Shown here one piece after another: positions 8,714 through 39,493 of a DNA stretch of 64,000 nt. A model generated the notes under the pieces. It did not search any database. It was not told the DNA's origin and saw only the letters and a list, made by a program, of their open reading frames with translations. Every line of letters begins with the position of its first letter. The stretch's first letter is position 1. The DNA comes from Herbaspirillum sp. Sphag64 (GTDB lineage: Bacteria; Pseudomonadota; Gammaproteobacteria; Burkholderiales; Burkholderiaceae_D), in the NCBI RefSeq assembly GCF_014192645.1, contig NZ_JACHYE010000007.1, positions 124,001 through 188,000 on the forward strand. The letters run 5' to 3'. The position numbers and the translations under genes are program-made.

Positions 8714-9418
8714 CTAAATAAATGCTCCGGCATGAAATACAACGCGTCCCAATACTTCACTAGTATCCGTGTCGAACGGCTGGCGTTGATAATGCTTGCG
8801 GTTGGGATTGTCCGCGCTGACATACCACTGACCCAGATCAAGGATAAGACGTCTGACGAATACCGCACCATTGACGTTGAGTAAAAATATTCCGTTATCA
8901 ATCGGTTCGGTACTGGCGGTATCGATGACCACAATATCGCCGGCCGCCAGACGTGGATACATACCTGCATCTTCGATTGCGATGGCAATCAGATGCTCAG
9001 GCACCAGGCTGTGACCATTAAGCCAGTTACGGTGCAGGCTCAACACAGCATCGGCCTGCTTGACCTCGGCAATGTCAGGATGACTGGCACCCGGTTTGAG
9101 AATCAGGCTGACCTGCCGGATGAAGATCATGTCATCGACATTTTCTCCACTGTTGGCTTGACTACGGTATGCAAGATGCGCGGAAGTTTCTCCGATCATC
9201 AGCAATTCAAAATAGAGTGGATTGAGGCCGAGACGTTTTTCAAGTCGGCGTGCTGCCTTTTCGCCAAAACCCTGGCCACCACGATACGTTGGCGACAGGA
9301 GTTGGCCTAGGCGAGATTCGCTCAAATTGCTGTCATCACAGAACTGTCTACGATTATTTTGGTAGCGATCCTGGAGCAGGGCAATCAGGCGTTTTCGTCG
9401 GTGTTCATGCATATTCAT
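8714..9418 (-). CDS. CI/LexA-like (S24) repressor lacking the Ser-Lys dyad
   Basis: The protein is about 234 residues from the ATG at 9418. The N-terminal helix-turn-helix covers roughly residues 3-60 (FCDDSNLSESRLGQLL). The C-terminal half aligns by eye with the S24 domain of lambda CI and LexA. Where those have the nucleophile (GDSMxP or GNSM), this protein has DAGMYP. Where they have the lysine (TFKKL), it has VFVRRL. No Ala-Gly cleavage pair is visible in the linker. It should therefore dimerise and bind DNA without RecA-stimulated self-cleavage; this is inference. It faces a YdaS-type regulator across one palindrome, a phage-like switch layout, but no other phage gene is nearby. Confidence 0.8.
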   Translation of the reverse strand: MNMHEHRRKRLIALLQDRYQNNRRQFCDDSNLSESRLGQLLSPTYRGGQGFGEKAARRLEKRLGLNPLYFELLMIGETSAHLAYRSQANSGENVDDMIFIRQVSLILKPGASHPDIAEVKQADAVLSLHRNWLNGHSLVPEHLIAIAIEDAGMYPRLAAGDIVVIDTASTEPIDNGIFLLNVNGAVFVRRLILDLGQWYVSADNPNRKHYQRQPFDTDTSEVLGRVVFHAGAFI

Positions 9419-9437
9419 GAGCTCATTGGAACTCACA

Positions 9438-9453
9438 TTTACCAAATGGTAAA
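9438..9453. promoter_or_regulatory. Palindromic operator between the S24-type repressor and YdaS-type gene
   Basis: TTTACCA-AA-TGGTAAA is an inverted repeat with perfect 7-bp arms and a 2-bp centre. It lies 20 bases upstream of the repressor start and 47 bases upstream of the divergent gene. A plus-strand extended -10 (TGgTAAACT, 9447-9455) with TTGGAA (9426-9431) 18 bases upstream would overlap it. The natural reading is an operator for one or both regulators. Confidence 0.6.
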
Positions 9454-9499
9454 CTAACTTTTGCTTGACTTGACAATAAGTAATGCTACATTGAGGGGC

Positions 9500-9754
9500 A
9501 TGACACTTTTGCAATTTCTTAACTCGTTATCTCCTGAGTCTCGTGCGAGACTGGCTGTACATTGTGAGACTTCCTTCGAGTATCTGCGCCAGATCGGTTA
9601 TGGCAATCGCCCCTGTTCACCGAAGATTGCGGTCTGTATCGAGCGTGAATCGGGTGGCATAATTACGCGAAAATCCTTGTTCCCGAATGATTGGGAAAAA
9701 GTATGGCCAGAGTTGGCAGTGGAAGAGTTGAGTAGTCGCTCTGAGCTCGGATGA
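9500..9754 (+). CDS. YdaS/Cro-like DNA-binding regulator
   Basis: This 84-residue helix-turn-helix protein starts at the ATG at 9500, preceded by GAGGGGC; the open frame reaches back to 9461. The HTH is LAVHCETSFEYLRQIGYGNR. The following CSPKIAVCIERESGGIITRKSL and the aromatic PNDWEKVWPEL are typical of the YdaS/Cro-like family found at prophage control regions. It is divergent from the S24-type repressor. By analogy it would be the Cro-like partner; this is inference. Confidence 0.75.
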   Translation: MTLLQFLNSLSPESRARLAVHCETSFEYLRQIGYGNRPCSPKIAVCIERESGGIITRKSLFPNDWEKVWPELAVEELSSRSELG

Positions 9755-39370: not shown

Positions 39371-39493
39371 GCGACACAGGCAGTAAAGTGTTGTTGATGC
39401 GAAATTGCAGTATGTAGTAATAAGTAGTCGCAAGTAACAAGCTGTGATGCCACACAGTGTAGTATCGGTAGTAGCTGCGGGATGTAACACAAA

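Follow-up and report, generated by a model that had tools for sequence, protein, structure and literature searches.

A chromosomal S24-type repressor of Herbaspirillum with replaced cleavage residues and apparently repeated loss of these elements among its orthologues

The S24-type repressor encoded at 8714-9418 (REP) of the window, by which we mean the whole 64,000-nucleotide stretch of DNA analysed, appears from its residues to have lost the canonical route of self-cleavage, in agreement with an earlier sequence-only reading that called it non-cleavable. Both catalytic residues and the P1 residue of the cleavage site are replaced, and a protein from which Ser, Lys and the scissile Ala are all gone should be unable to cleave itself. 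At least one of these elements has been lost from 7 of the 9 copies of REP at the same chromosomal locus in the genus, in varying combinations. Among the orthologues, the pattern of the dyad looks like repeated loss and not like a new conserved sensor. We regard the locus as a likely relic of an immunity switch of the CI/Cro type, in which the repressor has lost SOS-triggered self-cleavage and probably still binds its operator.

Domains and cleavage residues of the repressor

8714-9418, minus strand: REP, a CI-like repressor of 234 aa with an HTH and an S24-fold domain
9197-9418, minus strand: N-terminal DNA-binding domain, residues 1-74, from AlphaFold helices and HTH superposition
8723-9133, minus strand: S24-like C-terminal domain, residues 96-232, catalytically degenerate, from Pfam PF00717 and the LexA/CI folds
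9092-9094, minus strand: Pro109 codon (CCG), where relatives carry the P1 residue of their Ala-Gly bond, from alignment to them
8963-8965, minus strand: Gly152 codon (GGT), catalytic Ser position, from alignment to LexA mutants
8852-8854, minus strand: Arg189 codon (AGA), catalytic Lys position, from alignment to LexA mutants

Profile and fold agree on the identity of REP as an S24-type repressor. The Pfam profile Peptidase_S24 (PF00717) scored 45.7 bits against a cut-off of 23.3, and the PHROG 4 phage repressor family matched at 7.3e-18. The gene starts at the ATG at 9418, which is conserved in orthologues; a longer reading frame from a TTG at 9514 was rejected because the orthologues align from that ATG. 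An AlphaFold model built on 19 aligned sequences (mean pLDDT 78.9, pTM 0.69) predicted N-terminal helices at residues 3-19, 23-30, 34-41, 45-48 and 53-63, a linker of low confidence at residues 78-92 and a beta-rich C-terminal domain. The N-terminal domain superposes on HTH chains of phage repressors and C-proteins, best on the Salmonella phage Rep-Ant complex 5d50 (Z 10.9, 71 residues). The best superposition of the C-terminal domain was on Thermotoga maritima LexA 3k2z (Z 13.7, 123 residues, 2.6 Å), and it also matched lambda CI from a complex with RecA (8gmu, Z 11.7) and the CI of phage 186 (2fkd, Z 10.5).

The dyad columns were set by profile alignment of REP to solved chains of Mycobacterium tuberculosis LexA, in which the depositors' mutations S160A (6a2s) and K197A (6a2t) fall at REP columns 152 and 189. 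Gly152 thus occupies the place of the catalytic Ser and Arg189 that of the catalytic Lys, the two replacements that had been read from the letters alone. The absence of a scissile Ala-Gly pair, also claimed then, could be traced to one position: Pro109-Gly110 aligns with the Ala-Gly of relatives, most of which have Ala before Gly110, so the change is Ala to Pro at P1. Another Ser and Lys aligning at the dyad would have spoken against the earlier claim, and none stands in nearby; after residue 95, Ser or Lys occurs at 104, 108, 112, 120, 127, 137, 169, 201, 208 and 220. Three S24 proteins were found in the genome, REP, LexA and a UmuD-like protein, and the latter two have intact elements (RVAAG, GMSM and VTVKR in LexA; ISAG, GDSM and FTIKW in the UmuD-like protein).

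In another genome of the genus (locus L162, genome G207), a distantly alignable S24-type protein has Ala in place of the catalytic Ser and Arg in place of the Lys, and is perhaps a second degenerate repressor of the genus.

Cleavage elements among orthologues at one chromosomal locus

Full-length REP was found in 9 of the 34 genomes of the genus, which has Herbaspirillum among its members. In all 6 copies with long flanks (loci L033-L037 and L039), xthA lies on one side and pepA-lptF-lptG on the other, with mipA accompanying xthA in 5 of them; a genome lacking REP (locus L082) has the gene order xthA-mipA-pepA. REP and its divergent YdaS-like neighbour are no more than 1.5 kb from pepA in every one of the 9 genomes except G252, where about 1.7 kb lies between YdaS and pepA. 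The pepA loci returned numbered 30, 9 of them from REP-bearing genomes and 21 from others. That the repressor is chromosomally retained, as first proposed, is supported by its place beside pepA in 9 of 34 genomes and by the purifying selection described below. G252 also carries a second copy away from this locus (L007/L038, on contig G252:C25) with dyad and Ala-Gly intact and no adjoining YdaS match; the copy L007 was left out of the nine.

At the P1, Ser and Lys columns, REP of the window has Pro, Gly and Arg; that of G298 Ala, Ala and Arg; those of G152 and G294 Ala, Gly and Lys; that of G196 Pro, Ser and Lys; and those of G240 and G252 Ala, Ser and Arg, while G281 and G287 have the intact Ala, Ser and Lys. 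The sequence-only reading had suggested asking orthologues whether Gly and Arg are conserved, and they are not: the Ser column holds Gly in 3 copies, Ala in 1 and Ser in 5, and the Lys column holds Arg in 4 and Lys in 5 (n = 9). An exchange of Lys for Arg alone may leave weak cleavage activity, which bears on G240 and G252; the literature matches listed held no report on K156R.

The pepA tree joined the window with G298 (96/93), G152 with G294 (100/100) and G196 with G240 (98/93), yet the last two have lost different elements. If the intact state is ancestral and the two pairs with shared losses are collapsed, 5 of 7 lineages have lost elements. Unrooted parsimony over the 9 copies required 2 changes at P1, 3 at Ser and 2 at Lys, or 3 at Lys if Lys is ancestral; since 2 Lys/Arg changes suffice in the unrooted case, the Arg of G252 and that of the window and G298 could be shared.

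These losses were compared with three sets of relatives. Among viral contigs, which were found by search patterns free of the dyad, Ala-Gly, Ser and Lys were all kept in 80 of 80 relatives (the best 80 of 233). Among 60 S24 relatives of the family, a set in which several rows are near copies and which includes the L162 protein, Ser was kept in 59, Lys in 58 and Ala-Gly in 57, with any loss in 3 rows. In the genera g6 and g40, all 27 full-length relatives inspected (27 of the 29 listed, leaving out G136 and G290) were intact. The full-length counts leave out L046 (28% identity, with Asp-Gly at the scissile columns and Ser and Lys present) and the truncated L052. Fisher tests, which ignore relatedness within the control sets, gave p = 5e-9 by copy (7/9 vs 0/80) and p = 4e-6 against the family (vs 3/60); by lineage the values were p = 6e-7 (5/7 vs 0/80) and p = 1e-4 (vs 3/60).

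We also estimated the constraint on the two genes. Between the window and G298, with silent sites near saturation, pN/pS was 0.26 for REP as a whole, 0.13 for the HTH and 0.30 for the less constrained S24 domain; six further within-genus pairs gave 0.23-0.38 for REP. For ydaS the values were 0.28 (window and G298), 0.27 (window and G287) and 0.09-0.21 (four pairs of the remaining genomes). On these ratios, the coding regions of both genes are under purifying selection.

A table was drawn up of 33 S24 columns in which 93% or more of 59 background rows agree (L162 left out). Thirteen of the 33 are invariant in the 9 copies (103, 105, 110, 145, 153, 155, 161, 181, 184, 190, 198, 204 and 224), and columns 113, 179, 206 and 215 differ from the background in all 9. 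Thirteen columns vary besides 109, 152 and 189, namely 107, 143, 148, 150, 166, 169, 185, 187, 200, 202, 220, 226 and 227. The idea that loss is specific to the cleavage residues is accordingly only partly true, other conserved S24 columns varying in the clade too. REP is not a pseudogene but a relaxed protein: part of the S24 domain has stayed constant, and the cleavage columns belong, with others, to the parts set free.

The divergent partner, its operators and explanations of the loss

9500-9754, plus strand: YdaS/Cro-like partner of 84 aa, divergent from REP (PHROG 35 transcriptional repressor, 1.2e-10)
9438-9453, no strand: REP-proximal operator-like palindrome, a perfect TTTACCA and TGGTAAA around AA, with no second exact match found in the genome
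9475-9490, no strand: eroded ydaS-proximal operator with 5 mismatches and its left half lost, in the register of the second palindrome of relatives
9465-9492, plus strand: candidate ydaS promoter TTGACT -16- TACATT, by consensus match only

The PHROG 35 match places the partner near the YdaS family. Its score with the Pfam profile YdaS (PF15943), 14.7 bits, is below the cut-off of 30, of which a phage-type relative at locus L042 also falls short (23.4). The partner gave tblastn matches in 18 phage records, one of which, a record of phage mEp043, annotates its own YdaS-like gene as Cro. A full YdaS-like gene occurs in the identical 9 of 34 genomes as REP (co-occurrence 9/9), and a tenth genome, G258, has a match of 37 residues only. 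The start codons of the two genes are 80 bp apart in 8 of the 9 copies and 81 bp apart in the window, so that a repressor and a divergent YdaS-like gene flank a short intergenic region as in a lambdoid CI/Cro switch. Viral loci have a similar layout: an opposite-strand YdaS match lies beside REP in 31 of 80, and in 14 of the best 15 of these it starts 82-84 bases from the REP start.

Of 17 chromosomal copies, 16 carry the 16-bp palindrome TTTANCANNTGNTAAA at ≤1 mismatch and always in the same register, at a distance of 20 bases from the start of REP, against 6 of 8500 shuffled sequences with such a match anywhere. In that register it has 0 mismatches in 14 of the 15 phage contigs tested, which were drawn from the 31 viral loci where YdaS was matched. 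In relatives, a second palindrome overlies the ydaS -10, and both operators are present at ≤2 mismatches in 7 of the 9 locus copies. The window does not have two intact operators, one per promoter, and repression of ydaS there is doubtful because the ydaS-proximal one is eroded. A wider regulon of REP is not indicated, as the operator pattern at ≤2 mismatches gave 10 genome sites, one of them exact, against 11 for the reversed control. Judging by the promoter spacing (9465-9500 and 9418-9453), the ydaS transcript, and perhaps that of REP, may have no leader or almost none; the lambda cI transcript from PRM is leaderless.

In several relatives, ydaS is followed by a gene for a membrane protein with 4-5 predicted helices by a simple hydropathy count and no family match (L033:3956-4777(-), L035:5866-6594(-) and L036:8077-8838(+)). 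It looks intact in G281, G287, G196, G152 and G294, is apparently frame-broken in G240, and was not seen after ydaS in the window, G298 or G252. The 4 copies with Lys changed to Arg are the 4 in which this gene is broken or unseen, a post hoc observation on few copies, two of which are sisters.

Phage kinship is seen in locus L042 (G067), where REP, YdaS (45%) and a DUF1376 replication-type gene follow in order and the dyad is intact, and in Mannheimia phage vB_MhS_587AP2, which has a CI with 23% identity to REP (E 4e-6) and a divergent YdaS-like gene. In genus g6, 6 of 8 long loci with REP relatives adjoin an acs-type gene. The 8 chromosomal g6 relatives, whether in relic or live prophages, keep all three cleavage elements, and no YdaS match adjoins REP in these 8 long loci. 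Loss as a rule for chromosomal copies is contradicted by the g6 relatives; because they keep all three elements, chromosomal residence alone does not lead to loss. What might explain the loss, over a handful of lineages, is a YdaS gene left behind when the other phage genes are gone. Two g6 loci have phage-like neighbours, L041:8277-8819(+) with a weak match to a Q-like zinc motif and L049:5982-6410(-) with the PHROG 1024 family; an acyl-CoA synthetase gene also neighbours the REP relatives there. In one of the 8 long loci, L045 of genome G201, an intact-dyad REP relative at L045:7001-7711(+) sits in the pepA-xthA slot with no YdaS match, which would mean either that the insertion is ancient or that the slot has been used more than once.

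By the simplest reading, the REP locus is the immunity switch left from an ancient prophage, with REP as its CI-type repressor, the YdaS-like protein as its Cro-type antagonist and the 81-bp gap holding both promoters and operators. To judge from their intact residues, phage relatives of REP would cut themselves at Ala-Gly through Ser-Lys once RecA is activated. With the rest of the prophage lost, damage inducibility may no longer have been maintained in the genus, or may have been selected against, since damage would switch on ydaS. The cleavage elements would then have been lost in separate lineages, all three in this genome. REP has most likely remained at the locus as a protein that binds DNA and regulates its own gene, opposed only by YdaS competition or by dilution. 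Competition by the YdaS-like protein, one of two means of release named in the sequence-only reading, is plausible because YdaS acts as the Cro in CP-933P, the divergent promoter region of 80-81 bp is shared and the two genes co-occur 9/9. The wider claim of that reading, by which some other signal, for instance a ligand, has to bring about release, is not supported: Gly and Arg are not conserved in the 9 copies, and nothing requires release. Ligand sensing was set aside for the same reason, there being no conserved dyad substitutes across orthologues.

A stronger form of the relic switch, which we put forward tentatively as one possible course, is that its hosts were selected to disarm the SOS trigger, any of the three hits being fixed repeatedly while DNA binding was conserved. 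Uncleavable alleles would be favoured because they keep ydaS from being switched on by damage; should the release of YdaS carry a cost, an SOS-cleavable repressor is a liability after the death of the phage, and uncleavable alleles would be favoured or at least permitted. The dyad-keeping chromosomal g6 relatives, with no adjoining YdaS match, are in line with such selection. If it is true, the locus is a natural series from an inducible phage switch to a fixed host regulator.

A serious rival, although we hold it unlikely, is that the whole switch is decaying, REP and YdaS being prophage debris with no function left and the loss of cleavage neutral drift. It is serious because the second operator is eroded and the membrane gene is gone from the window; the S24 domain, less constrained than the HTH, also drifts at several conserved columns, and REP is absent from 25 of the 34 genus genomes at E 1e-20. 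Against decay, the REP and ydaS frames are intact with pN/pS well under 1, the REP-proximal operator is a perfect palindrome, and REP and YdaS have been kept together in 9 of 9 genomes. Decay and selected disarming both predict no damage induction, and the present data do not separate them.

It is improbable that REP has acquired another means of release and so remains a regulated switch, whether through an antirepressor in the style of 186/Tum or Gifsy or through ligand binding in the S24 domain. Phage 186 CI, which lacks the catalytic residues and is inactivated by the Tum antirepressor, shares the fold of REP, and the Gifsy repressors are uncleaved and respond to LexA-controlled antirepressors (PMC3121763). 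No replacement residues are conserved among the orthologues, however, and LexA boxes at ≤1 mismatch in the window number 18 against 22.45 expected, a weak point since antirepressors can be small and distant. One LexA-box match in the window, at 39442-39457, is exact. It is very improbable that REP is still inactivated in trans, with either the intact S24 proteins of the host or an ATP-dependent protease doing the cutting: host LexA and the UmuD-like protein keep Ala-Gly, Ser and Lys, and the sister G298 keeps its Ala-Gly, but P1 is Pro in the window, unfit for the Ala/Cys-Gly specificity of S24 cleavage, and efficient trans cleavage by S24 proteins is not usual.

Relation to known repressor systems

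Non-cleavable repressors are usually known as finished products. Here a single locus of one genus offers repressors with no, one, two and three hits together, with the phage relatives as an unchanged baseline, and this series makes testable how a prophage switch uncouples from the SOS response, by drift or by selection. It is also a warning against taking every repressor annotated as S24 to be damage-inducible. What looks new is that the loss is graded and has recurred among orthologues; non-cleavable phage repressors are already known. Among the matches listed from open-licence literature, there was no earlier case of orthologues at one chromosomal locus repeatedly losing cleavage elements, and the matches listed on prophages, repressors or S24 proteins of Herbaspirillum held nothing on the REP locus.

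With the autocleaving repressors lambda CI and P22 C2 and with LexA, REP shares the two-domain layout, the S24 fold, a divergent Cro-type partner and intergenic operators. It differs from them in that Ser, Lys and the scissile Ala are replaced and that no prophage was recognised around it.

Also comparable are RacR-YdaS-YdaT of rac (PMC5700373) and PaaR2-YdaS-YdaT of CP-933P (PMC8630535), chromosomal prophage remnants in which a CI-type repressor is divergent from YdaS. In CP-933P, PaaR2 and YdaS are reported to compete for intergenic operators like CI and Cro, with bistable expression. In rac, deletion of racR is lethal through release of ydaS-ydaT; Jobling has argued that YdaS and YdaT are regulators, not toxins (PMC5917428). 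Unlike both, the REP locus has no YdaT that we could see. PaaR2 is described as without sequence similarity to CI, whereas REP belongs to the S24 proteins and the dyad is intact in its phage relatives. Gifsy, 186 and N15 are listed as having non-cleavable repressors, and RacR and DicA are grouped with the Gifsy (GfoR-like) type (PMC3121763); there is therefore precedent for YdaS being paired with a non-cleavable repressor in a cryptic prophage.

REP resembles 186 CI/Tum, N15 and Gifsy GfoR/GftR (PMC3121763) in that it should not be inactivated by its own cleavage, and shares a fold with 186 CI. Its predicted non-cleavability, in contrast to theirs, would have arisen from a protein that looks cleavable, through losses repeated among the orthologues. 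A survey labels 210 of its 271 predicted cI proteins putatively non-autoproteolytic (PMC10432266). Another parallel is FddR, a phage-derived S24 repressor fixed in Francisella, which has kept cleavage, with Ser-Lys and Ala-Gly intact and a response to DNA damage (PMC13148647). Both are phage repressors fixed in the chromosome of a genus, and REP has gone the opposite way.
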